IMG/VR virus record: IMGVR_UViG_3300043392_000054
Coordinates: 118,830 to 182,829 of that record
Reading direction: 5' to 3' (one strand)
Length of the DNA stretch: 64,000 bases
Source of the DNA: a virus
Part shown: positions 2,670-43,862 of the stretch, in pieces
How positions within the stretch are numbered: position 1 is the stretch's first letter
Layout of the letters: every line of letters starts with the position of its first letter
Made by a program: the position numbers and the translations under genes
The notes under the pieces: model-generated
What the model was told of the DNA's origin: nothing
Databases searched by the model: none
Seen by the model: the letters and a program-made list of their open reading frames with translations, nothing else

Positions 2670-3144
2670 AGAATCTAAGCGAACTGTTTCAAAACAAAAA
2701 CAGGTCAAAGAAAAAACTTCTGAAGTGTTAAAACAATTTAATGAGCATCTTAACGATGAAGAATTAAAAAGAAATTATGATGGTTTTATAAAAACAAAAA
2801 GTATTATTGAAGTAAGAGTTGAAAGGTATATTACACAAATAAATTCTTTACAAGATAATATTAATAAGCATAGAAACTGTATCATAGATACTCTTAAATT
2901 GGGTTATACAGATATTTCGTATCTTATTGGAGGTTTATCTCAATTGGAATCTGATTTAGAAAGAGTAAATGAGGACTTGTTTAAATCAAAGACAGAATTA
3001 GATAAAATTAATAGCAATATAGAACGTTATGAAGAATTATCTGAAAGAACTAAATTAACTTATTTTAAATTATTATCTAATTCAGGCGATATTAAAGGAA
3101 CTTGGTTAGAATTTAAAGAACAATACAAAGATAAAATATTTTAA
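2662..3144 (+). CDS. Hypothetical coiled-coil protein
   Basis: I chose the ATG at 2662 rather than the upstream TTG at 2653 because it overlaps the stop of the phosphoesterase gene. The ~160-residue product is almost wholly helical, with heptad-like Leu/Ile spacing and many Lys/Glu/Asn, so a long coiled coil is likely. No enzyme motif is seen. Confidence 0.7.
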   Translation: MNKESKRTVSKQKQVKEKTSEVLKQFNEHLNDEELKRNYDGFIKTKSIIEVRVERYITQINSLQDNINKHRNCIIDTLKLGYTDISYLIGGLSQLESDLERVNEDLFKSKTELDKINSNIERYEELSERTKLTYFKLLSNSGDIKGTWLEFKEQYKDKIF

Positions 3145-3148
3145 AATA

Positions 3149-3532
3149 ATGAAAGAGTTAATATTATTGAGAGGGTTACCTGGTAGCGGTAAATCAACGT
3201 TTGCTGATTTAATCGGTGGTTTTCGTTGTGAAGCTGATATGTTTTTTATGGAAGATGGAGAATATAAGTTTGATGTTAATCGTCTTAAAGAAGCACATCT
3301 TTGGTGTAAAAAGGAATGTGAATCATTTATGGTTAGAGAAAAACCAAAGGTAATAGTATCCAATACATTTACTCAAGAATGGGAAATGGAGGATTATTAC
3401 AAATTGGCAAAAAAATATGGCTATAAAGTAACATCACTTATTGTTGAAAATAGACATGATGGTAAAAGTATTCATAGTGTTCCAGATGCAACATTAGGTA
3501 ATATGAGAAATCGTTTTGAAATTAAACTATGA
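3149..3532 (+). CDS. P-loop kinase, polynucleotide-kinase-like
   Basis: The N-terminus carries a Walker A motif, GLPGSGKST (residues 9-17), followed by an Asp/Glu-rich region and a DxxN-type stretch. At 127 residues it fits a single AAA/PNK-type kinase domain (family also seen in NEDD4BP2-like and zeta-type kinases). It lies between a phosphoesterase and an RNA ligase, so a 5'-OH RNA kinase is a reasonable guess, but the substrate is inferred only from context. Confidence 0.8.
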   Translation: MKELILLRGLPGSGKSTFADLIGGFRCEADMFFMEDGEYKFDVNRLKEAHLWCKKECESFMVREKPKVIVSNTFTQEWEMEDYYKLAKKYGYKVTSLIVENRHDGKSIHSVPDATLGNMRNRFEIKL

Positions 3533-3714
3533 AAAGCTTATTTGATTTAGAAAGTACTCCTAAAACTGAAGTAGAGTGGGATAAAGTATTAGACCATTGG
3601 ATGGTAGATACTGGAATAAAAGACCCGAAAGATGATAACTTCAATACCCCACCACAAATAGTAAAGTTAGCAATTTGGTTAGAAGAAAGATATACAAAGC
3701 CCTTTAAAAAATGA
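3529..3714 (+). CDS. Small hypothetical protein
   Basis: A 61-residue acidic protein overlapping the kinase stop by four bases (ATGA) and overlapping the next gene the same way, so it is translationally coupled within the 2013-4125 run. No motif recognised. Confidence 0.6.
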   Translation: MKSLFDLESTPKTEVEWDKVLDHWMVDTGIKDPKDDNFNTPPQIVKLAIWLEERYTKPFKK

Positions 3715-3947
3715 TAAAAAAGATATTTCTATTAGCATTAACGATTGGTCTTTTTTCTATGGGTTATAGAAGTTTAAAAAAAGAACAATGTTCAGTTGCT
3801 CGTAAATTTGAAATAGAAAATAATGGTAAATTAGAAAAACACTTTTTAGTTAAATTTACAGATGGAACTATTCAAGATGAAATAGTTTCAGATGTAGTTT
3901 ATAGAAATATAAAAGAATTAGATTTTTATTATGCAATTAAACAATAA
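3711..3947 (+). CDS. Small membrane-anchored hypothetical protein
   Basis: A hydrophobic N-terminal segment (KKIFLLALTIGLFSMGY) precedes ~55 charged residues, so the product is either secreted or anchored by one membrane helix. It is coupled by ATGA overlap to the gene before. Function unknown. Confidence 0.6.
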   Translation: MIKKIFLLALTIGLFSMGYRSLKKEQCSVARKFEIENNGKLEKHFLVKFTDGTIQDEIVSDVVYRNIKELDFYYAIKQ

Positions 3948-3951
3948 TATT

Positions 3952-4125
3952 ATGTACGTAACAATTTTAAATTTTGAAAGCGGTAAAATTGATGTCTTAG
4001 AAATACCAATGTCAAATGCAGGTGATTCGGCTGAATTGTATATCGAAGAAACTTTAAACTATTCTCTTAGTAACTGTGATTGGATGATGACTGCTGAAAA
4101 ACCAGAACTTAATTTTTTAAATTAA
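3952..4125 (+). CDS. Small hypothetical protein
   Basis: The ATG at 3952 follows the previous stop directly; an earlier in-frame ATG at 3931 would overlap it and is less likely. The ~57-residue product is acidic and lacks known motifs. It is the last gene before the promoter at 4131-4171. Confidence 0.55.
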   Translation: MYVTILNFESGKIDVLEIPMSNAGDSAELYIEETLNYSLSNCDWMMTAEKPELNFLN

Positions 4126-23810: not shown

Positions 23811-23881
23811 GTTCTTATAGTGAAAAGGTATCACGTCTGACTGTTAATCAGTTATTATTGGTTCGAATCCAATTAGGAACG
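23811..23881 (+). tRNA. tRNA-Asn (anticodon GTT), copy 1
   Basis: Acceptor GTTCTTA/TAGGAAC, anticodon loop CTGTTAA, T-loop TTCGAAT. The outermost anticodon-stem pair is a mismatch (T-T). Confidence 0.85.
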
Positions 23882-23904
23882 CAAAAAAATTGAAAATAAT
23901 TCGC

Positions 23905-23945
23905 TAAATATTTTTTTTATTCGAGAATTATTAGTAGATTTACAT
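23905..23945 (+). promoter_or_regulatory. Class 1 promoter of a tRNA operon
   Basis: TAAATATTTTTTTTATTC then TAGATTTACAT (23935-23945). AATAATTC/GAATTATT flank the A/T element and can form a hairpin. It drives tRNA-Leu onwards. Confidence 0.7.
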
Positions 23946-23956
23946 AACTTAAAACA

Positions 23957-23978
23957 GTTCTTTGACATATTGGTAAAA
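23957..23978 (+). promoter_or_regulatory. boxA-like antitermination element, copy 1
   Basis: GTTCTTTGACATATT followed by GGTAAAA lies 11 bases after a promoter and just before tRNA-Leu. It matches the boxA found ahead of bacterial rRNA genes, and it recurs at 24543 and 30350. Confidence 0.55.
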
Positions 23979-23981
23979 GTT

Positions 23982-24062
23982 GCCCGGGTGATGGAATGGT
24001 AGACATAACGGTCTTAGAAACCGTGGTCGAAAGACGTGAGAGTTCGAGTCTCTCCCTGGGTA
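23982..24062 (+). tRNA. tRNA-Leu (anticodon TAG)
   Basis: Acceptor GCCCGGG/CCTGGGT, anticodon arm ACGGT-CTTAGAA-ACCGT, long variable arm, T-loop TTCGAGT. Confidence 0.93.
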
Positions 24063-24069
24063 CAAATAA

Positions 24070-24139
24070 GTACGAGTTGGTCGTGGCGGCCAGCAGGTCT
24101 GCAAAATCTGCGGAGTCAGTTCGATTCTGACCTTGTACT
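24070..24139 (+). tRNA. tRNA-Cys (anticodon GCA)
   Basis: Acceptor GTACGAG/CTTGTAC, anticodon arm CAGGT-CTGCAAA-ATCTG, T-arm GTCAG-TTCGATT-CTGAC. Confidence 0.93.
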
Positions 24140-24220
24140 CTACATCCTGTCTCCACAGACACACACATCCGGGAGATGAGCAGGATTACGTCGAATAAAG
24201 GAGAGGAATAAGACGATTCT
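24140..24220 (+). other. Hairpin-containing spacer
   Basis: ATCCTG (24144-24149) can pair with CAGGAT (24180-24186 region) around TCTCC/GGGAGA, giving a short hairpin between tRNA-Cys and tRNA-Phe. No gene seen. Confidence 0.35.
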
Positions 24221-24296
24221 GGACCAGTAGCTCAGCTGGTAGAGCACTAGACTGAAGATCTAGGTGTCGCAGGTTCGAATCCTGCCTGGTCCACCA
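24221..24296 (+). tRNA. tRNA-Phe (anticodon GAA), CCA encoded
   Basis: Acceptor GGACCAG/CTGGTCC, anticodon arm CTAGA-CTGAAGA-TCTAG, T-loop TTCGAAT, then ACCA. It is one of two tRNAs here with an encoded CCA. Confidence 0.96.
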
Positions 24297-24299
24297 TAT

Positions 24300-24374
24300 T
24301 GCGGGATGCGTAGAAAATGGTTATCTCATCGGTCTCATAAGCCGAGGTTCCGGGTTCGAGTCCCGGTCCCGCAA
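24300..24374 (+). tRNA. tRNA with CAT anticodon, copy 1
   Basis: Acceptor TGCGGGA/TCCCGCA, anticodon arm TCGGT-CTCATAA-GCCGA, T-arm CCGGG-TTCGAGT-CCCGG. It may be Met or Ile2 (lysidine). Confidence 0.88.
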
Positions 24375-24380
24375 CAACAT

Positions 24381-24453
24381 AGAGTAGTATATCAATGGCT
24401 AGATTACACGTTTTGGGTGCGTGAGGTTGCAGGTTCGAGTCCTGCCTACTCTA
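24381..24453 (+). tRNA. tRNA-Pro (anticodon TGG)
   Basis: Acceptor AGAGTAG/CTACTCT, anticodon arm CACGT-TTTGGGT-GCGTG, T-loop TTCGAGT. Confidence 0.9.
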
Positions 24454-24483
24454 CTTAAAAAAAATAATTTAAAAATAATTAGC

Positions 24484-24524
24484 AAAATATTTTTTTATAT
24501 CAAGAATTATAGTTATATTTACAT
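24484..24524 (+). promoter_or_regulatory. Class 1 promoter of a tRNA operon
   Basis: AAAATATTTTTTTATATC and TATATTTACAT (24514-24524) precede a boxA-like element and tRNA-Gly. Confidence 0.7.
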
Positions 24525-24542
24525 AAGAATTTAAATAAGAGA

Positions 24543-24564
24543 GTTCTTTGACATATTAGTAAAA
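24543..24564 (+). promoter_or_regulatory. boxA-like antitermination element, copy 2
   Basis: GTTCTTTGACATATT followed by AGTAAAA; it differs from the copy at 23957 by one base and has the same place between promoter and first tRNA. Confidence 0.55.
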
Positions 24565-24566
24565 TA

Positions 24567-24641
24567 AGCAGGTATCGTATAATGGCTTATTACTCTAGCC
24601 TTCCAAGCTGGAGATGAGAGTTCGATTCTCTCTACCTGCTC
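24567..24641 (+). tRNA. tRNA-Gly (anticodon TCC)
   Basis: Acceptor AGCAGGT/ACCTGCT, anticodon arm CTAGC-CTTCCAA-GCTGG, T-arm GAGAG-TTCGATT-CTCTC. Confidence 0.92.
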
Positions 24642-24643
24642 TA

Positions 24644-24738
24644 AATCATGAGGCCATTGGTTGGCAGCACCTCCCCAAGGTTGAATCTTAGGATTCTTTA
24701 TGGCAAAGCTGAAATTGGTTCGAATCCAATCATGATTA
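24644..24738 (+). ncRNA. Expanded tRNA-like RNA, 95 nt
   Basis: Perfect acceptor AATCATG/CATGATT, D-arm GCCA/TGGC and T-arm ATTGG-TTCGAAT-CCAAT flank 47 bases with no normal anticodon stem. Two small hairpins, GAATC/GATTC and CTTT/AAAG, occupy the place instead. Confidence 0.6.
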
Positions 24739-24744
24739 CAATAT

Positions 24745-24823
24745 TGCGATGCAGGTGCATTGACGGTCTCATGAGCCGTATTGGTAGATATACCCAACAG
24801 AGGTTCGAGTCCTCTAATCGCAA
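24745..24823 (+). tRNA. Unusual tRNA with CAT anticodon
   Basis: Acceptor TGCGATG/AATCGCA (6 of 7 pairs), anticodon arm ACGGT-CTCATGA-GCCGT, T-arm AGAGG-TTCGAGT-CCTCT. The D-arm is very short, and a TTGG/CCAA hairpin lies in the variable region. Confidence 0.65.
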
Positions 24824-24825
24824 CA

Positions 24826-24945
24826 AATCTTAGGAGTAATTAACTTAAGACTGACAGGTTCGAAACTGTCGATTGATTATGGTGTAAAGGCGCACAGAGA
24901 CCGTAATTGGAGCTCAGGATTAAGGTTCGAATCCTTATTAATCAG
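24826..24945 (+). ncRNA. tRNA-like RNA with unclear anticodon
   Basis: The part at 24874-24945 has an acceptor TGATTA/TAATCA and T-arm TAAGG-TTCGAAT-CCTTA but no anticodon stem I can draw. Just upstream, GACAG-GTTCGAAA-CTGTC resembles a second, isolated T-arm. Confidence 0.45.
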
Positions 24946-24951
24946 CAATAT

Positions 24952-25023
24952 TGAGTATTAGCTCAGCGGTAGAGCTCTCGACTGTTAATCGAGCGGTCCT
25001 AGGTTCGAATCCTAGATACTCAG
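24952..25023 (+). tRNA. tRNA-Asn (anticodon GTT), copy 2
   Basis: Acceptor TGAGTAT/ATACTCA, anticodon arm CTCGA-CTGTTAA-TCGAG, T-arm CTAGG-TTCGAAT-CCTAG. Confidence 0.95.
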
Positions 25024-25028
25024 CAATG

Positions 25029-25095
25029 TATTTAACGCTCCAACTTAGGTTGGTAAGCATCCGATAGTAACCTCGGACGGGCAATGTGTTAAATA
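25029..25095 (+). ncRNA. Compact structured RNA, 67 nt
   Basis: TATTTAAC (25029-25036) pairs with GTTAAATA (25088-25095). Two hairpins, CCAAC-TTAG-GTTGG and TCCGA/TCGGA, lie inside, giving a three-way junction without a T-arm. Confidence 0.5.
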
Positions 25096-25119
25096 AGCGG
25101 TAAGGAAAAGACGAAAATA

Positions 25120-25244
25120 TTGTCAAGAGGCGAGAGGAACACGCCCCGAAACATTGATTCAAAACTTTCTGACAGAAGAACGGAGTCTCTGCTTTATCAA
25201 TGTGCTGATGGAGACTATCACTGGTTCGAATCCAGTATTGACAA
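25120..25244 (+). ncRNA. Expanded tRNA-like RNA with pseudoknot, 125 nt
   Basis: Acceptor TTGTCAA/TTGACAA, D-like arm GGCG/CGCC and T-arm ACTGG-TTCGAAT-CCAGT are intact. The anticodon region is replaced by ACATTGAT (25151-25158)/ATCAATGT (25196-25203). AGTCTC in that loop (25184-25189) is complementary to GAGACT outside it (25211-25216), an H-type pseudoknot. Confidence 0.65.
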
Positions 25245-25246
25245 CT

Positions 25247-25428
25247 AAAACAACTAACTGATTAACACTAAATAGTAACACTATCGGCAGTACGATTCTG
25301 CACTAGAAATTGGATTTGATGTGTTATCTCACAGTCTAAGATGTGAATAGTTTAGGTTAATGTAAACATAAAGTAGCTTATGGCCAAATGTAAAGTGTTT
25401 ATCCACTTAGAAGGCAGTTAGTTGTTTT
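25247..25428 (+). ncRNA. Highly structured RNA, 182 nt
   Basis: AAAACAACTAACTG (25247-25260) pairs perfectly with CAGTTAGTTGTTTT (25415-25428). Next comes ATTAACACTAAA (25261-25272) with TTTAGGTTAAT (25351-25361), one bulge. Inside are a T-arm-like GCAG-TACGATT-CTGC, TCACA/TGTGA, CATAA/TTATG and AAGTG/CACTT. No significant open frame. Confidence 0.65.
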
Positions 25429-25435
25429 AAAATAT

Positions 25436-25528
25436 AGTCAGGTGACGGAATGGTAGACGTATTTGGGTTCTCTGCCCGATACCTTTGTAAAGGCAAAAAG
25501 CTTACAGGTTCGAATCCTGTCCTGACTA
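25436..25528 (+). ncRNA. Type II tRNA-like RNA, AGTCAGG family 1
   Basis: Acceptor AGTCAGG/CCTGACT and T-arm ACAGG-TTCGAAT-CCTGT with a Leu-like 5' half. The anticodon stem TTGGG/CCCGA encloses TTCTCTG (formal anticodon CTC) and a CCTTT/AAAGG variable arm follows. The anticodon does not fit Leu, Ser or Tyr. Confidence 0.6.
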
Positions 25529-25542
25529 CAATATTAAAATAC

Positions 25543-25710
25543 GGTCAAGTAGCGGAATGTTTGCACTAGAGGTTTATTTCTGATGGTGTTGACTTGGTTA
25601 AACGCTAAGTAGTAAAGCTAACTACAGACAAAGCTGTGACGGACCCTGAAGTACAAAGGGTTGAAGTAGAAGATTACGCACGGTTATAGGTTCGAATCCT
25701 GTCTTGACCA
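25543..25710 (+). ncRNA. Expanded tRNA-like RNA, 168 nt
   Basis: Perfect acceptor GGTCAAG/CTTGACC and T-arm ATAGG-TTCGAAT-CCTGT enclose a ~110-base centre with TAGCG/CGCTA, GTAGT/ACTAC and ACCCT/AGGGT stems. It lacks the group I intron core sequences seen at 42752. Confidence 0.6.
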
Positions 25711-25782
25711 CAAGGAGTTCCCAATCTCAAGTGCTGGTTAACCTTAAAAAGTTATCCGTATGAGCCCATCAAAATTGGAATT

Positions 25783-25864
25783 TGCCTGTATCGCATAGCG
25801 GCAATTGCGGCTGACTGTAAATCAGCTCCTTCGGGTTCAGAGGTTCGAGTCCTTTTGCAGGCAC
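25783..25864 (+). tRNA. tRNA-Tyr (anticodon GTA), copy 1
   Basis: Acceptor TGCCTGT/GCAGGCA, anticodon arm GCTGA-CTGTAAA-TCAGC, variable arm with TTCGG, T-loop TTCGAGT. Confidence 0.93.
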
Positions 25865-25920
25865 GATTAAACAAAAATATTTACGTAAGTATAATTAATA
25901 CAACTATTAAAATTAAAATT

Positions 25921-26139
25921 ATGACATCTAACGAATTCACTTATTGGTTACAAGGTTTTTTTGAAATTTCAAAAGCTGCTAATGTAAAAGAACTTGATGA
26001 AGTGCAAACTCAAATTATCAAAGACCATTTAGAATTAGTTTTTAAAAAAGAAACACCTAATAGAACATGGTCCGATACGGGTGGAAATAGAGGCACGTGC
26101 GGAACTGCGGGAACTGCGGGAATTCCGTTTGGAATGTAA
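25921..26139 (+). CDS. Small phage protein, MTSNEFTYWLQGFFE family
   Basis: The ~72-residue protein has a helical first part (EFTYWLQGFFEISKAANVKELDEVQTQIIKD) of a kind common among small T4-like phage proteins of unknown role, and a disordered Gly/Thr-rich end (GTCGTAGTAGIPFGM). The ATG at 25921 follows an A-rich leader; it lies between two tRNA-Tyr genes. Confidence 0.75.
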   Translation: MTSNEFTYWLQGFFEISKAANVKELDEVQTQIIKDHLELVFKKETPNRTWSDTGGNRGTCGTAGTAGIPFGM

Positions 26140-26150
26140 GATATTAATTT

Positions 26151-26231
26151 GGGAGTATTGAGCAATTGGTTGGCTCGCCGGTCTGTAAAATCGGTCCTTC
26201 GGGCATGTAGGTTCGAGTCCTACTGCTCCCA
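26151..26231 (+). tRNA. tRNA-Tyr (anticodon GTA), copy 2
   Basis: Acceptor GGGAGTA/TGCTCCC, anticodon arm CCGGT-CTGTAAA-ATCGG, variable arm TCCTTCGGGCA, T-arm GTAGG-TTCGAGT-CCTAC. Confidence 0.9.
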
Positions 26232-26235
26232 CTAA

Positions 26236-26337
26236 AGTATTAGTAATTCAGTGGTAAGACTGGCGTCCCCTCATGGTTAAGGGCCGAAAAGCTGGGAATA
26301 AGACGATCGCCGTTGGTTCGAGTCCAACCTAATACTT
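26236..26337 (+). ncRNA. Expanded tRNA-like RNA, 102 nt
   Basis: Acceptor AGTATTA/TAATACT is perfect and the T-arm GTTGG-TTCGAGT-CCAAC normal. Between D-arm and T-arm a GGCG/CGCC helix encloses about 40 bases with a CCCT/AGGG hairpin, and no clear anticodon. Confidence 0.55.
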
Positions 26338-26342
26338 TAAAT

Positions 26343-26413
26343 ACGAGTGTGGTGCAATGGTAGCATTCCGGTCTCCAAAACCGTCGATGGGAGTTCGAAT
26401 CTCTCCACTCGTG
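26343..26413 (+). tRNA. tRNA-Trp (anticodon CCA)
   Basis: Acceptor ACGAGTG/CACTCGT, anticodon arm CCGGT-CTCCAAA-ACCGT, T-loop TTCGAAT. Confidence 0.93.
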
Positions 26414-26476
26414 CAAATAGTTTTACAGGTCGTTCTGTCCTTGGGTTCTATAAATCAAAAATCCTAAAAAAGGCCA

Positions 26477-26550
26477 GGACTCTTAGCTCAGTTGGTTAGA
26501 GCACCCGACTCATAATCGGTAGGTCGTAGGTTCAAGCCCTACAGGGTCCA
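26477..26550 (+). tRNA. tRNA with CAT anticodon, copy 2
   Basis: Acceptor GGACTCT/AGGGTCC, anticodon arm CCCGA-CTCATAA-TCGGT, T-loop TTCAAGC. Met or Ile2. Confidence 0.9.
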
Positions 26551-26554
26551 CATT

Positions 26555-26628
26555 TGATTCTTTAGGCTAACGGATAAACCTCTCGGCTACGAACCGAGGA
26601 TTGAATGTTCGAATCATTCAGGAATCAC
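26555..26628 (+). tRNA. tRNA-Arg (anticodon ACG)
   Basis: Acceptor TGATTCT/GGAATCA, anticodon arm CTCGG-CTACGAA-CCGAG, T-loop TTCGAAT. Confidence 0.93.
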
Positions 26629-26633
26629 AATAT

Positions 26634-26707
26634 TGCGATATGGTAGAGATGGTTTCTTACGGTGCTCTCATAAGGCACAGACATTGGTTCAAATCCAATT
26701 GTCGCAA
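26634..26707 (+). tRNA. tRNA with CAT anticodon, copy 3
   Basis: Acceptor TGCGATA/TGTCGCA, anticodon arm GTGCT-CTCATAA-GGCAC, T-arm ATTGG-TTCAAAT-CCAAT. Met or Ile2. Confidence 0.88.
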
Positions 26708-26759
26708 CAAAAGTTTTTACGGTGGTTCTGGTTCTTCAAAAACGCTATCACCTCCACCA

Positions 26760-26833
26760 GACTCCGTAGCTCAGTTGGTTAGAGCACCTCACTTTTAATG
26801 AGGGGGTCAATGGTTCGAGTCCATTCGGGGTCA
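26760..26833 (+). tRNA. tRNA-Lys (anticodon TTT)
   Basis: Acceptor GACTCCG/CGGGGTC, anticodon arm CCTCA-CTTTTAA-TGAGG, T-loop TTCGAGT. Confidence 0.95.
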
Positions 26834-26839
26834 CAATAT

Positions 26840-26933
26840 GCTTCATACACAATTCTGCAATCTCTCAGTTAAAAGCTGTTGCAGACGTAAATGAATAATC
26901 CAACATGGTTATTAGTTGTGAACAATATGAAGC
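26840..26933 (+). ncRNA. Structured RNA, 94 nt
   Basis: GCTTCATA (26840-26847) pairs with TATGAAGC (26926-26933). TCTGCAA/TTGCAGA (26854-26860/26879-26885) and an AATAA/TTATT hairpin lie inside. It sits between tRNA-Lys and tRNA-Ile. Confidence 0.55.
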
Positions 26934-26938
26934 TCCAT

Positions 26939-27012
26939 GCACCTTTAGCTCAGTTGGTTAGAGCACCGACCTGATACGTCGGGGGTCGAAGGTTCGAGTC
27001 CTCCAAGGTGCA
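26939..27012 (+). tRNA. tRNA-Ile (anticodon GAT), copy 1
   Basis: Acceptor GCACCTT/AAGGTGC, anticodon arm CCGAC-CTGATAC-GTCGG, T-loop TTCGAGT. Confidence 0.95.
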
Positions 27013-27021
27013 CAATTATAT

Positions 27022-27095
27022 GGTGTTTATCGTCTAACGGTTAGGACGCTGGTTTGTGGTACCAGCAATCTGAGTTCGATTCTCAGTAGACACCC
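27022..27095 (+). tRNA. tRNA-His (anticodon GTG)
   Basis: Acceptor GGTGTTT/AGACACC with discriminator C, anticodon arm CTGGT-TTGTGGT-ACCAG, T-loop TTCGATT. Confidence 0.94.
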
Positions 27096-27099
27096 CAAT

Positions 27100-27184
27100 G
27101 GAAGTTTGTCCGAGTGGCTTATGGTGACACTTTGCTAAAGTGTTGGATGTAATAGTCCCACAGGTTCGAATCCTGTAACTTCCT
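27100..27184 (+). tRNA. tRNA-Ser (anticodon GCT)
   Basis: Acceptor GGAAGTT/AACTTCC, anticodon arm ACACT-TTGCTAA-AGTGT, long variable arm, T-arm ACAGG-TTCGAAT-CCTGT. It is the only clear serine tRNA and a natural substrate for the SerRS at 33243. Confidence 0.94.
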
Positions 27185-27210
27185 CAATGACAAAAACAAT
27201 CGATAAAAGA

Positions 27211-27246
27211 TTTTTATTTATTGAAACTTTTAGTTACATTTACAGT
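27211..27246 (+). promoter_or_regulatory. Class 1 promoter, weak match
   Basis: TTTTTATTTATTG then TACATTTACAG (27235-27245). It precedes the genes at 27276-28045. Confidence 0.6.
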
Positions 27247-27275
27247 ATATTAATATATACCAAATTTGACTTATA

Positions 27276-27656
27276 ATGGGAAATAGCCTGAAAAATGAAT
27301 TTGCAGCATACGAACATGCATTGGCTGTAAAAGAATTAGGGTTTAATTGGAAGTGTTTTGGCTTCTATGATAGTCCAACCCTTCAATTAATGCATTGTAT
27401 AAACTCTGAGCCTTGGATGGGAAATGCAGTTGTTGCAGCACCGCTAAAAAGTCAACTATTTAGATTCTTTCGGGAGAAGTATAATCAAAATTCATTTATT
27501 GAATTAGTTTATCAAGATGGAATAAAATATGATTATGTTTTATATGCAGATAAAGATGAAGAAGTATGCGGAAATTTTGGAGATGGACCTTTTAATACTT
27601 ACGAAGAAGCAGAGAATGCTTGTATCGATAAACTTATAGAACTAGCTAAACAATAA
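27276..27656 (+). CDS. Hypothetical protein, paralogue of 40732
   Basis: This 126-residue protein shares with 40732 the order EFxxYExAxAxxxLGFNxxCxGxY, VxAAPLKxQxFxxFREKY and YExAENxxIDxLIELAKQ. The pattern recurs in phages of Bacteroidota as proteins of unknown role; the conserved FREKY and IELAKQ ends suggest a small helical-beta domain. It is followed by 27658 without a gap. Confidence 0.75.
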   Translation: MGNSLKNEFAAYEHALAVKELGFNWKCFGFYDSPTLQLMHCINSEPWMGNAVVAAPLKSQLFRFFREKYNQNSFIELVYQDGIKYDYVLYADKDEEVCGNFGDGPFNTYEEAENACIDKLIELAKQ

Positions 27657-27657
27657 A

Positions 27658-27891
27658 ATGAAAACAAGAATTCATGTTAATCAACACAATATTCGTTCAA
27701 ATAAAACAAAGGGTACAGATTTACCAGTTATAACTATTAAACAGGGTAAAAAAAATACTTATTGTAATGAAGTAGAAATACTTGGTCCTAGTAAAATTAT
27801 TTATTCAGGCTCAGGTTGTGATACTGCAGCTTTATTAGGTTGTGGTGCTAGAGTAGTGATAGAAACAGAATCAGATGTGATAATTAAATAA
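27658..27891 (+). CDS. Hypothetical protein, 77 aa
   Basis: A small beta-rich protein with LGPSKIIYSGSGCDTAALLGCGARVVIETE, containing two Cys. It starts two bases after the stop of 27276. Family unknown. Confidence 0.65.
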   Translation: MKTRIHVNQHNIRSNKTKGTDLPVITIKQGKKNTYCNEVEILGPSKIIYSGSGCDTAALLGCGARVVIETESDVIIK

Positions 27892-27901
27892 ACAATAAAT
27901 T

Positions 27902-28045
27902 ATGAAATGGTTAGATAGAAATATTTTGTATATTACCTTTGGCTTTTTAGCAGCTTGTATTCTTTTTCAAATGTGGTATATTCAAAAATTAAAAAGTGAA
28001 TTAAAGTTGTTTAATCAAAAACAAATTGTTATGCCAAAAAAATAA
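27902..28045 (+). CDS. Small membrane protein
   Basis: A 47-residue product with one hydrophobic helix (NILYITFGFLAACILFQMW) and a basic C-terminal part. Function unknown. Confidence 0.55.
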   Translation: MKWLDRNILYITFGFLAACILFQMWYIQKLKSELKLFNQKQIVMPKK

Positions 28046-28061
28046 TTTGAAAATAAAGGCT

Positions 28062-28103
28062 CAAATATTTTTTATTGTCACCGGAATTTAGTAGATTTAC
28101 AGT
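28062..28103 (+). promoter_or_regulatory. Class 1 promoter
   Basis: TCAAATATTTTTTATTGTC then TAGATTTACAGT (28092-28103), upstream of the gene at 28125. Confidence 0.7.
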
Positions 28104-28124
28104 ATACTAATAAACAATAAGACA

Positions 28125-28355
28125 ATGACTGAAGAACAAATCTACAACGAGCAACAGGAATACAATCGTTACCAAGAGTTGATTAATACAAAGGAAATCT
28201 TAACTCAAGAAGAGTATGAACTTTGTAAAGCTTGGAATGCTGATGAGGCTTGGAAATATTTAAATGATATTGGTAATGGTCAATGGTTAAACATCAACGT
28301 TTACTCTGAAGTGGATAAAGAAGAGTTTGACCTTAGAAAGGAAATGGGTTTTTAA
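28125..28355 (+). CDS. Small acidic hypothetical protein
   Basis: A 76-residue, Glu/Tyr/Asn-rich protein (EEQIYNEQQEYNRYQELINT), mostly helical. No motif. It has its own promoter and is followed by a class 2 promoter. Confidence 0.65.
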   Translation: MTEEQIYNEQQEYNRYQELINTKEILTQEEYELCKAWNADEAWKYLNDIGNGQWLNINVYSEVDKEEFDLRKEMGF

Positions 28356-28358
28356 TTA

Positions 28359-28394
28359 TTGAAACTATATAAAAATAGTACATATAATATATAC
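28359..28394 (+). promoter_or_regulatory. Class 2 promoter of a stable-RNA unit
   Basis: TTGAAAC (28359-28365), 17 bases, TATAATATATAC (28383-28394): both boxes equal those at 8165, also before tRNA-like genes. Confidence 0.7.
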
Positions 28395-28396
28395 AT

Positions 28397-28468
28397 TGCG
28401 GGGAGGACAAATGGTAAGTCGTTAGTCTCATAAGCTAAAGAAGGTAGTTCAATTCTACCCCCACGCAA
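28397..28468 (+). tRNA. Divergent tRNA with CAT anticodon
   Basis: Anticodon arm TTAGT-CTCATAA-GCTAA and T-arm GGTAG-TTCAATT-CTACC are normal. The acceptor TGCGGGG/CCCACGCA needs one bulge, so it may be decaying. Confidence 0.6.
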
Positions 28469-28469
28469 C

Positions 28470-28741
28470 AATGAGTAAGAGATACTCAGCAGTCTTTAAT
28501 CCAAGACTCATTTAACAATGGATAGGGTAATGGACCGGACATCCTAACTATATAAAAAGCCGGTCTCATGGGGATAAAGGAACGGGGACACGGTTCCTTC
28601 CCAGTAAGTGTTGACTTTTTAAGCGGTAAGACGCGTTGGGTTTTTGAAAGCAAAAAACTATAAATATCTACCCATCTAGAATCTCAAGGTGGGGAAAGAA
28701 GTTCTGAGGTTGGCGAGCTCTTCTATAAAAAAGCAATCCAT
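28470..28741 (+). ncRNA. Structured untranslated region
   Basis: AATGAGT/ACTCATT closes a first hairpin (28470-28515). ATGGAT/ATCCAT (28518-28523/28736-28741) encloses GACCGG/CCGGTC, a strong AAGGAAC/GTTCCTT hairpin (28577-28599) and AATCTCA/TGAGGTT (28680-28711). AGAAG within the last loop is complementary to CTTCT at 28720-28724 (pseudoknot). No open frame of note. Confidence 0.45.
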
Positions 28742-28748
28742 CCACTAT

Positions 28749-28863
28749 AGTCAGGTGGCGGAATGGTAAACGCAGGTTCGGTGGAGCAAAAGAACTCCAT
28801 ACCAGAGTAAGCAATTAGTTTATGACTAACACCTATTTACAGGTTCGAATCCTGTCCTGACTA
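28749..28863 (+). ncRNA. Expanded tRNA-like RNA, AGTCAGG family 2
   Basis: Acceptor AGTCAGG/CCTGACT and T-arm ACAGG-TTCGAAT-CCTGT equal those at 25436. The centre holds two hairpins, TGGAG/CTCCA with loop CAAAAGAA and TTAG/CTAA with loop TTTATGA, neither a normal Leu/Ser anticodon arm. Confidence 0.55.
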
Positions 28864-28879
28864 CTAAACAAATAACATT

Positions 28880-29068
28880 ATGAGAAAAGAAGAAACATTA
28901 ATTTTAAGCAGAGAAGATATGATTGCAGCTGTAAGTGATAAAGATGTTCAGCATATTAATTGTTCTGACTTTAAGATTGATAGTAACCTATTTCAAAAAA
29001 GTAGTATTGTTTTGTTCATAGACGATAATAATCAATCTAAGATTCTTAAAAACCGATACGGCTTATAG
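28880..29068 (+). CDS. Small hypothetical protein within RNA region
   Basis: A 62-residue frame (MRKEETLILSREDMIAAVSD) after an A-rich leader. Its last codons run into a tRNA 3' fragment (29051-29090), so the C-terminus may come from insertion into a tRNA-like gene. It may be real but degenerate. Confidence 0.45.
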   Translation: MRKEETLILSREDMIAAVSDKDVQHINCSDFKIDSNLFQKSSIVLFIDDNNQSKILKNRYGL

Positions 29069-29090
29069 GTTTGAATCCTGTTTTGACTAC
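29051..29090 (+). pseudogene. tRNA 3'-end fragment
   Basis: ATAGG-TTTGAAT-CCTGT followed by TTTGACTAC matches the T-arm and acceptor end of the 25543 and AGTCAGG families, but no matching 5' half is present. Confidence 0.5.
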
Positions 29091-29167
29091 GGTTCTGTGC
29101 TGCCTGAACGTACAGAAGGTTTTAAGTGACCTTGCTTAGATACTTAATGACTGATGGAAAGACATCG

Positions 29168-29227
29168 AATTCAATAGTACCTGAACAGTTAAATAGAGTG
29201 GGTATCCGCACAAAATGCTATTGAATT
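29168..29227 (+). ncRNA. Hairpin RNA, 60 nt
   Basis: AATTCAATAG (29168-29177) pairs perfectly with CTATTGAATT (29218-29227). Upstream, TTCTGT/ACAGAA and TTAAGT/ACTTAA give two further hairpins in 29093-29150. Confidence 0.45.
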
Positions 29228-29231
29228 ATTT

Positions 29232-29321
29232 AGTCAGGTGGCGGGAGTCTACACGGAGGCATCTGTGTGTTGGTTCGAGTCCAACGAGGTGTAAATACAG
29301 GTTCGAATCCTGTCCTGACTT
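29232..29321 (+). ncRNA. Nested tRNA-like RNA, AGTCAGG family 3
   Basis: Outer acceptor AGTCAGG/CCTGACT and T-arm ACAGG-TTCGAAT-CCTGT enclose a second complete T-arm, GTTGG-TTCGAGT-CCAAC, itself bracketed by TACAC/GTGTA and next to CACGGA-GGCA-TCTGTG. There is no anticodon arm. Confidence 0.55.
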
Positions 29322-29434
29322 CAAAATAATTAGAGAGAATGTGGGTTCGAATCCCACCTGGGCTGTCCGGTGAGGAGGGCCCGGTAGTGGAAAGGGACAA
29401 AGCACTCTATTTATTAAAGTATTGTAATAAACAT
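29322..29434 (+). other. Orphan T-arm and GC-rich structured spacer
   Basis: GTGGG-TTCGAAT-CCCAC (T-arm) appears 5' of a TGTCC/GGACA helix, inside AATTAGAG/CTCTATTT, so the T-arm is on the wrong side for a normal tRNA. Confidence 0.4.
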
Positions 29435-29595
29435 AGTCGGGTGACGGAGAGGAAACGCATGGTAAGACGCGTAATTACTTACACGGCTCACCACACACAG
29501 GTTCGAATCCTGTCCTGACTACAATGTATCAAATGTGCAGTGAAAATTAGTGTAGGCATACATTGATGAGGTGGGTTCGATTCCCGTTTAATAAT
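29411..29595 (+). ncRNA. Possible outer tRNA-like RNA enclosing 29435
   Basis: TTATTAAA (29411-29418) is complementary to TTTAATAA (29587-29594), directly after GTGGG-TTCGATT-CCCGT. CAATGTAT/ATACATTG is a hairpin inside. The whole 29435-29521 element lies within. The A/T-rich helix could be coincidence. Confidence 0.35.
29435..29521 (+). ncRNA. tRNA-like RNA, AGTCAGG family 4
   Basis: Acceptor AGTCGGG/CCTGACT (one wobble) and T-arm ACAGG-TTCGAAT-CCTGT. GGTGA/TCACC and ACGC/GCGT helices take the centre; no anticodon identified. Confidence 0.5.
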
Positions 29596-29600
29596 TCCTA

Positions 29601-29712
29601 ACTATGGAGGAAGCCAAGTAGCTGAGAACACATTATAGCCGGAATGGGTTGTGCACCTTGTCTAAGAGACCCTAATAGTTCCTAATAGGTCGGTATGGAA
29701 CTGATACATAGT
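29601..29712 (+). ncRNA. Structured RNA, 112 nt
   Basis: ACTATG/CATAGT close the domain. AGTTCC/GGAACT (29677-29682/29697-29702) is inside, and GACC (29668-29671) can pair with GGTC (29688-29691) in its loop. Confidence 0.4.
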
Positions 29713-29721
29713 AATATAGGT

Positions 29722-29812
29722 TGATTGGGGAATGGTTATGTCGATAGTTCGAGAGTGAATGCTGACTGACATAATCGGAGTTTAGAAGTATTCACCATAG
29801 TAAAGCCAATCA
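29722..29812 (+). ncRNA. Structured RNA with pseudoknot, 91 nt
   Basis: TGATTGG/CCAATCA close it. TTATGTC/GACATAA (29736-29742/29768-29774) encloses GTGAAT (29755-29760), complementary to ATTCAC (29790-29795) outside. Confidence 0.5.
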
Positions 29813-29857
29813 TAAAAGTAGATGTCCACTGAACCATCTTCTACTTTCCTAATAAAT

Positions 29858-29974
29858 AAGAGGCGGTGAAAGCTGTAATGATGAGCTTACGAGGTTAAGG
29901 TTTGAAAAAGGGTTAATAGTACGACTTAAAGCCTGCACTCATCATCAGTAACCCTGAAAGACCCGTAGCCTCTT
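29858..29974 (+). ncRNA. Structured RNA with pseudoknot, 117 nt
   Basis: AAGAGGC/GCCTCTT close it. ATGATGAG/CTCATCAT (29878-29885/29938-29945) encloses GGGTTA (29910-29915), complementary to TAACCC (29949-29954) outside. It has no T-arm and no anticodon. Confidence 0.6.
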
Positions 29975-29978
29975 AATT

Positions 29979-30051
29979 GCTTCCATAGCTCAGTTGGTAG
30001 AGCAGCTGATTTGTAATCAGCAGGTCGTTGGTTCGAACCCGACTGGAAGCT
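29979..30051 (+). tRNA. tRNA-Thr (anticodon TGT)
   Basis: Acceptor GCTTCCA/TGGAAGC, anticodon arm GCTGA-TTTGTAA-TCAGC, T-loop TTCGAAC. Confidence 0.94.
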
Positions 30052-30054
30052 CGC

Positions 30055-30115
30055 TGGATTATTGAATTGAATGATACGAGCCCCGAAAGTTCGAAATGAG
30101 TCATTCGATAATCCA
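30055..30115 (+). ncRNA. Small hairpin RNA, 61 nt
   Basis: TGGATTAT/ATAATCCA (8 bp) with an inner GAATGA/TCATTC helix and a loop containing GTTCGAAA. Confidence 0.45.
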
Positions 30116-30119
30116 AATT

Positions 30120-30258
30120 GATTCTATAGTTGTTTAGGTCGCTCCGAAAACAACGAGTGGGTTAATGATGGTTTAATATTACTGTCCAATATTCTAGATA
30201 AAGTGATAAGTGATTAAACAAGTAATTAACAAGATGGGTTCGATTCCCATTAGAATCG
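30120..30258 (+). ncRNA. Expanded tRNA-like RNA, 139 nt
   Basis: Acceptor GATTCTA/TAGAATC and T-arm ATGGG-TTCGATT-CCCAT are perfect. The D-arm is enlarged (GTTGTTT/AAACAAC). GTTAAT/ATTAAC and GTTTAAT/ATTAAAC helices enclose AATATT-ACTGTCC-AATATT, whose 7-base loop lacks the usual T33 (formal anticodon TGT). Confidence 0.6.
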
Positions 30259-30263
30259 CATTT

Positions 30264-30337
30264 GGTTCGTTAGTAGAGTTGGTTACAATGTCGCCCTGTC
30301 ACGGCGAAGGTCACGGGTTCGAGTCCCGTACGAACCG
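30264..30337 (+). tRNA. tRNA-Asp (anticodon GTC)
   Basis: Acceptor GGTTCGT/ACGAACC, anticodon arm TCGCC-CTGTCAC-GGCGA, T-loop TTCGAGT. Confidence 0.95.
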
Positions 30338-30349
30338 CATTACATTATC

Positions 30350-30373
30350 GTTCTTTGACATATAGGAGAAAAC
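30350..30373 (+). promoter_or_regulatory. boxA-like element, copy 3
   Basis: GTTCTTTGACATATAGG, overlapping the left inverted-repeat arm and preceding the gene at 30379. Confidence 0.45.
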
Positions 30374-30378
30374 AAATT

Positions 30379-30699
30379 ATGGATATACTATCATTCGTTT
30401 TAGGGATTGCTGTTGTCGTGGTTATTGGATTATCAATAGTTGCGGTTATTGCATTTGTTAAGGCAAAGAAAATAGAAAAACAATTAGAAAACGTAGAATC
30501 TCATATTTTCAGAATATTGCAATCTGAAATATCAGATACACATCTAAAAATTGATGAAGTTGAAAAAGGAACTCATCAGTTAATTGATGAAGTTGAAAAA
30601 GGAACTCATCAAAGAATAGATGAATTAGAAAACAACGTCTTTTCTCAAATGGATTCGAGATTAGATAAACTAGAAAACAAATTAACAACTAAAAAATAA
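30379..30699 (+). CDS. Membrane protein with heptad repeats, inside tRNA array
   Basis: Residues ~4-30 form one membrane helix (ILSFVLGIAVVVVIGLSIVA); the rest is coiled coil. A 10-residue unit, IDEVEKGTHQ, occurs twice in tandem, followed by a related IDELENNVFSQ. The gene is brac keted by a 17-bp inverted repeat and lies between tRNA-Asp and tRNA-Glu. Function unknown. Confidence 0.7.
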   Translation: MDILSFVLGIAVVVVIGLSIVAVIAFVKAKKIEKQLENVESHIFRILQSEISDTHLKIDEVEKGTHQLIDEVEKGTHQRIDELENNVFSQMDSRLDKLENKLTTKK

Positions 30700-30729
30700 A
30701 AATTAGTTGAAGAACGATAATGTAATTTT

Positions 30730-30801
30730 GGCCCTATCGACAAGCGGTTAAGTCACGTCTCTTTCTAAGATGAGTCACGGGTTCGAATCCCGTTGGGGCT
30801 A
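30730..30801 (+). tRNA. tRNA-Glu (anticodon TTC)
   Basis: Acceptor GGCCCTA/TGGGGCT, anticodon arm CGTCT-CTTTCTA-AGATG, T-loop TTCGAAT. Confidence 0.92.
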
Positions 30802-30809
30802 CTTTAAAT

Positions 30810-30880
30810 TATTCCATGGTGTAACGGTAACACTACTGTTTTTGGTGCAGTCGTTGGAGGTTCGAATCCTTCTGGAATAA
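30810..30880 (+). tRNA. tRNA-Gln (anticodon TTG)
   Basis: Acceptor TATTCCA/TGGAATA, anticodon arm ACTGT-TTTTGGT-GCAGT, T-loop TTCGAAT. Confidence 0.93.
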
Positions 30881-30881
30881 C

Positions 30882-30985
30882 AGCTTAAAACCGCATCGGG
30901 TATCGTGAACAAGGGAGGCCTGCAACTTGAAATAAAGACAAATCACGTTAAATCTCTCCATTGAAGGTGCTATCGGTGACCTTCT
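30882..30985 (+). ncRNA. Structured spacer RNA
   Basis: CGTGA/TCACG encloses GGAG, complementary to CTCC outside (possible pseudoknot); GAAGGT/ACCTTC is a hairpin at the 3' side. It lies between tRNA-Gln and tRNA-Ile. Confidence 0.4.
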
Positions 30986-30989
30986 AAAT

Positions 30990-31063
30990 AGTGGTATAGC
31001 TCAGTTGGTTAGAGCATCGATCTGATACGTCGGGGGTCCCTGGTTCGAGTCCAGGTATCACTA
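30990..31063 (+). tRNA. tRNA-Ile (anticodon GAT), copy 2
   Basis: Acceptor AGTGGTA/TATCACT, anticodon arm TCGAT-CTGATAC-GTCGG, T-arm CCTGG-TTCGAGT-CCAGG. Confidence 0.93.
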
Positions 31064-31078
31064 CTAAATTTTATCAAT

Positions 31079-42696: not shown

Positions 42697-43001
42697 GGGG
42701 GTATAGCTCAGATGGCTAGAGCACCTGCCTTGCACGCAGGGGGTCGTGGGTAGGTAAAGAGCCCACTTAAGTAGTGATACTTAAATAAAAAACCGGATGA
42801 ATTGCTGGAAATCTAAGTCAGAAATGATATGACAATCAGCAGCCAAGCTTAAGATACATCTTAAGAAGGTTCAGAGACTAGTGGAGAAGTAAAGTCTTCT
42901 TAATAACCACATTAGCGTCCGGCATCTCATTAGAGATGAAGATATAGTCCGACACTCTTTCGAAAGAAGAGATTACAGTAAGTCGAATCCCTCTATCTCC
43001 A
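42697..43001 (+). tRNA. tRNA-Ala (anticodon TGC), split by a group I intron
   Basis: Exon 1 (42697-42751) ends inside the T-arm; exon 2 (42983-43001) begins TCGAATCC. Joined, they give acceptor GGGGGTA/TATCTCC, anticodon arm CTGCC-TTGCACG-CAGG and T-loop TTCGAAT (T-stem with one T-T mismatch). The anticodon is TGC for alanine. Confidence 0.88.
42752..42982 (+). other. Group I intron in the T-loop, 231 nt
   Basis: P1 forms between exon GTGGGT and internal guide GCCCAC (42761-42766) with the expected U-G at the splice site. The core elements P (AATTGCTGGAAA), Q (AATCAGCAGCCAAG), R (GTTCAGAGACTA) and S (AAGATATAGTCC) appear in order, and the last intron base is G. It encodes no protein itself. 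Confidence 0.92.
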
Positions 43002-43003
43002 CT

Positions 43004-43032
43004 AAGGTCTGTGAATTCACAGACCTTTTTTT
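43004..43032 (+). terminator. Terminator after tRNA-Ala
   Basis: AAGGTCTGTGAATTCACAGA is a perfect palindromic stem (AAGGTCTGTG/CACAGACCTT) followed by seven T residues. Confidence 0.85.
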
Positions 43033-43091
43033 ATTTTACAATGTATTTAGTTCGATTGCTATATTCTCCACATTTCTTAGATATATAGAAT

Positions 43092-43862
43092 ATGAAAGAA
43101 ATTATAAAATGTGATGAGTGTGGTGAAATATTCGATAATAAGAAAATAAAAGCTAATCATATTAGGTGGAAACACAGAGACCAGTCTGCGTATATAATTA
43201 AAGCATCTTTTATATTAAAAGATTCTTATGAAAAGAAGCATGGGACTATTTTAAAAGAATCTGTAAAATGTTCCTGTGAAACGTGTTCAAATATAATTGA
43301 AATAGAGTATAGAGAAAATAAAAAGAAGAAATATTATTTTTGCTCTAGGTCATGTTCTAATTACAGAGGAAAAAGGTCAATTGAAACTAAACAAAAAATT
43401 TCAGAATCTTTAAAACAAAAAAGTACATTAAAAAAATGTAAATGTAAATATTGTTTAAATGAATTTGAATATAATAGACCTAAAATGTTTTGTTCTAAAG
43501 CATGTTATACTCTATTTAAAAGAAAGGATAAATCTGGATTATCTAATTATAGAATTGATGCTTCTTTTAAATTTGATTTAAAAGATTATCCAAATGAATT
43601 TGATTTTAGTTTAATAGAAAAATATGGATGGTATAGCGCAGCAAATAGAGGAAATAATTTAAATGGTATTAGTCGAGACCACATGATAAGTGTTAAATAT
43701 GGATACGATAACAATATAGACCCAAAAATAATTGCGCATCCTGCAAATTGCAAGTTGATGAGACACAATGATAATGTTTCGAAATTTTCAAATTGTTTAA
43801 TTACGTTGGATGAACTTTTAGAAAAAATTAAAATCTGGGATGAAAAATATGAAACCTTTTAA
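43092..43862 (+). CDS. HNH-type homing endonuclease
   Basis: Zinc-finger-like CxxC pairs (CDEC, CETC, CSRSC, CKYC, CSKAC) fill the N-terminal 150 residues, and SRDHMISVKYGYDNNIDPKIIAHPANCKLM near residue 205 matches an HNH active site (Asp-His, Asn-His). It follows the intron-bearing tRNA by about 90 bases as a free-standing gene, so it may cut intron-less tRNA-Ala alleles and drive the intron's spread. Confidence 0.85.
   Translation: MKEIIKCDECGEIFDNKKIKANHIRWKHRDQSAYIIKASFILKDSYEKKHGTILKESVKCSCETCSNIIEIEYRENKKKKYYFCSRSCSNYRGKRSIETKQKISESLKQKSTLKKCKCKYCLNEFEYNRPKMFCSKACYTLFKRKDKSGLSNYRIDASFKFDLKDYPNEFDFSLIEKYGWYSAANRGNNLNGISRDHMISVKYGYDNNIDPKIIAHPANCKLMRHNDNVSKFSNCLITLDELLEKIKIWDEKYETF

Follow-up and report, generated by a model that had tools for sequence, protein, structure and literature searches.

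A T-loop group I intron in a phage tRNA-Ala gene and the putative homing endonuclease family beside it

In bacteria and phages, tRNA genes are known to carry group I introns at anticodon-loop sites. What, then, is one doing in the T-loop of a phage tRNA-Ala gene, and does it have anything to do with the nuclease gene that follows? The locus lies in a window (the whole stretch of DNA analysed) formed by the final 64,000 bases of a 182,829-base virus record; its features are collected in Table 1. To the reading that we prefer, in which the nuclease is a homing endonuclease of tRNA-Ala and tmRNA T-loops whose own target is shielded by an intron or by a recoded T-arm, intron and nuclease gene here making up a two-part mobile unit, we give a probability of roughly two in three (0.68).

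Table 1. Features of the split tRNA-Ala locus, in window coordinates
Feature	Position	Strand	Basis
tRNA-Ala(TGC) 5′ exon, G1-T54	42697..42751	+	ARAGORN on spliced sequence
P1: exon GTGGGT (42746-42751) with internal guide GCCCAC (42761-42766), U.G at splice site	42746..42766	+	sequence
Group I intron, 231 nt, ORF-less, between T54 and T55, terminal G	42752..42982	+	Rfam RF00028, covariation
tRNA-Ala 3′ exon, T55-A73, TCGAATCCCTCTATCTCCA	42983..43001	+	sequence, ARAGORN
Terminator-like hairpin GGTCTGTG AATT CACAGACC, then T7	43006..43032	+	sequence
tRNA-3′-half mimic TTCGATTGCTATATTCTCCA, T-loop to A73 at tRNA spacing; putative nuclease-gene operator	43051..43070	+	18-nt spacing conserved in family
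Putative homing endonuclease of 256 aa, free-standing, with a Cys-rich/zinc-finger N-terminus and an HNH-like C-terminus (D196, H197, H216, N219)	43092..43862	+	

The split gene and its relatives

As a sequence-only reading of this DNA had claimed, the tRNA-Ala gene of the window is interrupted in its T-loop by a group I intron. The covariance check which that reading recommended gave a match of Intron_gpI (Rfam RF00028) to window positions 42742-42972 at 101.2 bits (cut-off 50 bits; E 3.5e-27), spanning model positions 1-253, the full length. It is the only group I intron above the E-value limit in the 182,829-base record; a short-stretch scan reports it, and an Rfam scan of the entire window at the gathering threshold did not. 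The two exons join as had been proposed: ARAGORN calls the spliced sequence tRNA-Ala(TGC), with T-loop TTCGAAT, all arms present and the G3:U70 pair, and called no tRNA at the locus in the unspliced sequence. Compensatory double changes affect 23 of the 51 predicted pairs among six homologous T-loop introns, and chance is excluded for the intron on that account. Insertion is placed between T54 and T55 because the exon ends in GTGGGT, P1 (GUGGGU/GCCCAC) places U.G at the splice site and the intron finishes in a G at 42982, features that had all been named beforehand and are all present.

Candidates for the same insertion elsewhere came from a pattern scan requiring an S core and, after it, a T-loop exon; 201 loci were put through a splice-and-ARAGORN test. 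Three tRNA genes survived: those of the window (L001), of L003 (the same as L004 and L006) and of L077. Among the matches listed, the other junction-pattern matches in viral and genome contigs, many of them chance ones, failed this test. All three survivors are tRNA-Ala(TGC) split at the identical base, with introns of 231, 230 and 228 nt, respectively, and in both L003 and L077 the same nuclease gene as in the window follows at a distance of about 90-110 bp. The gene order of L003, a related phage, is that of the window. L077 is a different locus, having only the nuclease in common with the window in the stretch compared; here identity to the window is 88.5% for the intron, 79.5% for the tRNA exons and 70.3% for the nuclease gene. 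The T-stem of L077 is ATCGG/CCGAT, versus GTGGG/CCCTC in the window, and the guide has changed from GCCCAC to GCCGCT, such that the P1 pairs are kept except for one mismatch. The U.G pair at the splice site and the terminal G are retained in L003 and L077.

That the window tRNA-Ala is dead, a relic locus whose intron no longer splices, we consider very improbable. Splicing of the window intron is predicted from its sequence, and the P1 mismatch of L077 could be taken as a sign of decay; against this, the core, P1 and splice-site features are complete, compensatory changes keep the pairs, the spliced tRNA has all its arms and G3:U70, and a second intact tRNA-Ala was not found in the 182,829-bp record, which is perhaps incomplete.

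Comparison with related phages, also suggested earlier, gave the intron in L003 and its absence from L204, a locus syntenic with the window in which the nuclease is present and the T-loop of tRNA-Ala reads ATCGTAA. The recipient that the homing model predicts, a phage with a canonical intronless tRNA-Ala allele and no nuclease gene, was not found in this analysis.

Blastn against a phage collection matched 699 records, with introns in protein genes predominating; those opened were in terminase, psbA and nrd genes, in a tRNA-Met anticodon loop and in one tmRNA. This last is the match of best E-value (77% over 161 nt), from the 735-kb phage LR756501 (L007); with its intron removed, ARAGORN calls a tmRNA whose tag ends in LVLA. 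Two further phage tmRNAs, in L225 and L228, are interrupted in the T-loop by an intron that separates T55 from C56, and ARAGORN calls both after splicing. All three genes (L007 1597-2210, L225 2197-2915 and L228 2311-2888) are missed by ARAGORN until spliced, and L007 shows one irregularity, in that the base preceding exon 2 would be A instead of G. Behind each of these tmRNAs stands a gene for a nuclease that has the zinc-finger N-terminus of the window protein. The host gene of the window intron is tRNA-Ala, not tmRNA.

The T-loop introns of tmRNA are known from four subsites (2, 3, 7, and 8), with subsite 3 in Bacteroidia, and about 4% of tmRNA introns carry a homing gene, an intron-encoded LAGLIDADG (PMC11915505). 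The window intron shares with them its class and its place in the T-loop of an alanine-accepting RNA. Its position is equivalent to subsite 2 and that of its phage tmRNA relatives to subsite 3; it differs from the introns described there in that its host is an ordinary phage tRNA-Ala and that a free-standing nuclease, of a family associated with T-loops, adjoins it. For ordinary tRNAs, the open-access literature searched, part of it in excerpt, yielded no group I intron in the T-loop; the earlier reading, which called such a site not typical, missed that tmRNA cases are established (PMC11915505).

The nuclease family and its association with alanine-accepting genes

The nuclease gene lies outside the intron, as previously stated, starting 90 nt past exon 2. 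Its assignment to the HNH class is less firm than was stated then. D196, H197, H216, P217, and N219 are invariant in 17 homologs (motif D196-H197...H216-P-x-N219, with x variable), but a Pfam scan of the window protein gave no HNH family match and a PF01844 search of the record gave no match. PHROG 23051 (function unknown) matches at E 5e-31 and an HNH PHROG weakly; PADLOC and NCBIfam gave no informative match, and a PDB sequence search gave weak zinc-finger matches alone. Structural comparison of the predicted model (pLDDT 83) is weak, with a VIA Z of 4.0 to BrxU (residues 158-256) and a Z of 2.7 to the Gme HNH nickase; Foldseek on the HNH model found nothing significant, which was not counted against the fold. 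The motif, together with the weak structural matches, suggests an HNH-like domain.

The protein is one of a divergent family of phage proteins whose N-terminus is a zinc finger. Searching viral contigs with a profile gave 40 loci; the association counts below use a set of 36 loci. The Cys-rich N-terminal region is common to proteins with differing C-termini; the window and L007 proteins, for instance, are 42% identical across 111 N-terminal residues. Some C-termini are HNH-like as in the window and others, in L230-L241, are of a second HNH type; members such as L239 match HNH_3 weakly, under the curated cut-off. In the tmRNA-associated L007, L225, L227, and L228, and also in L226, the C-terminus resembles Vsr endonuclease, as modelled from L225 (Foldseek probability 1.00, E 8e-3, for a model of low confidence with mean pLDDT 65). 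The family is wider than first noted, and partly Vsr/EDxHD-like instead of HNH. L227 differs in arrangement: within 2992-4114 its Vsr/EDxHD-like nuclease gene meets the 3′ end of a tmRNA in opposite orientation, and the tmRNA, on the other strand, ends 5 nt from the nuclease gene.

ARAGORN calls tRNAs in 31 of the 36 loci, and in 22 of these 31 an intact tRNA-Ala is found within 200 bp of the nuclease gene. In 5000 label shuffles within loci this count averaged 7.06 and never exceeded its maximum of 15, a test that serves only as a guide, since L237 and L238 are near-duplicates and the homologs, being related, are not fully independent. Beyond these 22, six more loci have a split tRNA-Ala (window, L003 and L077) or a tmRNA (L007, L225, and L228) as the neighbor, while the nuclease homologs of L012, L015, and L240 do not adjoin tRNA-Ala. 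Seen from the intron side, each of the six T-loop introns that turned up in viral loci (three tRNA-Ala, three tmRNA) has a family nuclease directly downstream, a count that includes some ascertainment bias, L225 and L228 having been found via the nuclease. The comparison strongly supports the partnership of intron and nuclease that was originally proposed.

Intron and nuclease might instead be independent passengers: the intron would have come to the T-loop on its own, reverse splicing out of tmRNA being one possible route, and the nuclease would be a free-standing homing enzyme that happens to sit beside tRNA genes, which are common in these phages. Most of the nuclease homologs beside tRNA-Ala do lack an intron, tRNA arrays commonly host phage homing genes such as segB in T4 (PMC2988022), and bacterial tmRNA T-loop introns, mostly lacking an endonuclease gene, can persist alone (PMC11915505). 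We nevertheless judge the passenger account unlikely: the six-of-six association extends over two host genes and two nuclease domains, tRNA-Ala in particular, more than the remaining tRNAs of these loci, lies near the nuclease gene, and the tRNA fragments described next indicate the same T-loop that the introns occupy.

tRNA fragments around the nuclease gene

Several loci carry what appear to be scars of insertion. Located 3 nt past the nuclease stop of L204, AAGGTTCGAATCTGGGTAGCTCCA is a tRNA 3′ half with the canonical TTCGAAT, followed by its own terminator-like hairpin. Such halves are found behind the gene in L014 and L233 as well, in more degenerate form in L013, and on the other strand in L227; none was found behind the window's own nuclease gene. 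The scars of L204, L014, L233, and L227 start at or just before the T-loop. In L227 it is the tmRNA end near the nuclease that has an altered T-loop, and the canonical tRNA 3′ half is on the far side.

The T-arm is canonical in 4 of 12 tRNA-Ala genes upstream of the nuclease and in 9 of 10 downstream of it. Among non-Ala tRNAs in these loci the count is 217 of 257, which differs from that of the upstream tRNA-Ala genes at Fisher p 1.7e-4. Recoding is not universal, a canonical T-arm standing beside the nuclease in L209, L210, L215, and L217. To judge from these sequences, an altered T-arm may shield the tRNA from cutting. The pattern fits insertion within the T-loop for members with an upstream tRNA and further 5′ for those with a downstream tRNA (L230-L241), the unit supplying the missing half; the exact cut site may differ between family members.

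Two observations concern tRNA-Ala sequences near these genes. The D-arms as well as the T-arms are strongly divergent in tRNA-Ala beside the nuclease genes of L204 (2837-2910), L207 (2862-2935) and L013 (1905-1980), and tRNA-like 5′ halves precede the nuclease gene in L230 and L239.

A second kind of fragment precedes the gene. Most family genes have, 11-41 nt before the start codon, a copy of a tRNA 3′ half consisting of T-loop and TCCA at exact tRNA spacing, of the form GGTTCGATT-N8-CTCCA. We measured spacing from the last TCCA or TCCC in the 75 nt upstream of the start codon to the C of [TG][TG]C: it is exactly 18 nt, C to final base, in 21 of 29 genes, and any other spacing occurs at most 4 times (L217 being a real tRNA end). 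C56 and A73 of a tRNA are likewise 18 apart. The strict form precedes 19 of the 36 family genes (L238 being a near-duplicate of L237) versus 11 of 263 control ORFs. T-loop, TCCA, and 18-nt spacing are kept across proteins with identity down to 35% and T-stem pairing is lost; because that pairing is not kept, a DNA site is likelier than an RNA fold. TCCA at positions 70-73 is itself a mark of alanine tRNA in these loci (28 of 29 tRNA-Ala genes versus 7 of 257 other tRNAs), and U70 contributes one base to G3:U70, the pair that gives alanine tRNA its identity.

The mimic is probably a binding site through which the nuclease represses its own gene, by analogy with I-TevI, which does so via an operator resembling its homing site (PMC2988022). 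Both have an element like the homing site just upstream of the endonuclease gene; in the phage family the presumed operator differs in mimicking a tRNA 3′ half, and autorepression would be a prediction from this resemblance.

Might the mimic be only a decayed scar, an earlier 3′ half that the incoming intron or a substitute tRNA end pushed aside? It does have tRNA spacing, and displaced halves do adjoin the genes in L204, L013, L014, and L233. Yet the mimic is also present where the tRNA is on the other side (L231, L233, L237, and L241), where a 5′ half would be expected; the real scars are behind the gene, and decay would have to have removed T-stem pairing while sparing T-loop, TCCA, and the 18-nt spacing. 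We regard an origin purely as a scar as somewhat doubtful and favor the operator.

In five loci with the second HNH type (L231, L233, L237, L239, and L241), the mimic contains TATAAATA, the late promoter sequence of T4. The nuclease gene is followed by an intact tRNA-Ala in L231, L237, L239, and L241, and by a 3′ half only in L233.

Proposed mechanism and known systems

Scars and mimic point to the T-loop, i.e., the intron site, and an ORF-less intron adjoins a free-standing nuclease gene. From these sequence comparisons we infer splicing, cleavage, immunity, homing and autorepression as follows. The small T-loop intron would self-splice from the precursor, restoring tRNA-Ala. When a carrier phage co-infects with a phage that has a canonical, unsplit tRNA-Ala, the nuclease, whose target would be the T-loop/acceptor part of tRNA-Ala genes and of tmRNA, which shares the alanine signature, would cut the canonical T-loop DNA of the other phage, and repair would copy the carrier segment across. 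The carrier would have to guard its own tRNA: in the window phage, L003, and L077 the intron would do so by splitting the target, and in relatives such as L204, L207, and L208 a tRNA with a rewritten T-arm would take its place. Intron and nuclease would thereby benefit each other, which is collaborative homing, and by binding the copy of the target 3′ half upstream the nuclease would repress its own gene as I-TevI does.

A more specific version, which we hold tentatively at a little under even odds, has the family reading the T-loop together with T70-C71-C72-A73, the gene form of G3:U70. If that specificity holds, tRNA-Ala and tmRNA would both be targets because this motif is what is read; nuclease domains (the two HNH types and the Vsr/EDxHD type) are exchanged among members in this model, which also includes the two kinds of shield and self-control by the mimic.

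Each of four components is already known: group I introns in the T-loop of tmRNA, free-standing homing genes close to tRNAs of phages, collaborative homing, and autorepression. A nuclease family tied to alanine-accepting genes and having both kinds of protection was not found in the open-access literature searched. Close parallels include the collaborative homing pairs formed by the psbA intron and F-CphI in cyanophage S-PM2 and by MobE in Aeh1 (PMC3984707, PMC6083498). There, too, an ORF-less group I intron lies beside a free-standing endonuclease gene and the target is the intron site, as we propose here; the presumed target in the present case differs in being a tRNA T-loop, not a protein gene, and the window's family also occurs with recoded tRNA ends replacing the intron and, with a different domain, on tmRNA. 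T4 SegB is likewise a free-standing homing endonuclease in a phage tRNA cluster, and drives transfer of tRNA genes; it is a GIY-YIG enzyme with its target listed as tRNA intergenic DNA (PMC2988022), while the target proposed here would be inside tRNA-Ala or tmRNA. Klebsiella phage Muenster (L010) resembles the window in that one of its tRNA genes contains a small group I intron and has a nuclease gene nearby: we found at 1428-1733 an unannotated tRNA-Met(CAT) with a group I intron and an annotated HNH gene downstream. That intron differs in its site, the anticodon loop as opposed to the T-loop.

If the mechanism is correct, group I introns have a new site in tRNA genes and are linked there to a family of nucleases recognising a feature that nearly all tRNAs share. 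The long-debated origin of partnerships between introns and separate endonucleases would be testable at a single locus with natural alleles: intron (window and L003), recoded T-loop (L204), and canonical T-loop. The odd T-arms and D-arms of some phage tRNA-Ala genes would represent immunity to the nuclease, and the failure of tRNA finders to detect the split gene would be explained. Should the specificity be right, the enzymes could be useful as reagents recognising alanine tRNA and tmRNA genes.

The window has other tRNA features. A dense cluster of more than 20 tRNA genes, plus further tRNA-like sequences, occupies positions 23811-31064; Rfam tRNAs at 28398, 28749, and 29435 have no ARAGORN call. 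Several tRNA-like stretches at 28380-29560 are possibly decayed or chimeric tRNA genes, and AGGTTCGAATCCTGTCCTGACTAC and its variants, which are tRNA 3′-half sequences, repeat there at about 28841, 29067, 29298, and 29498.
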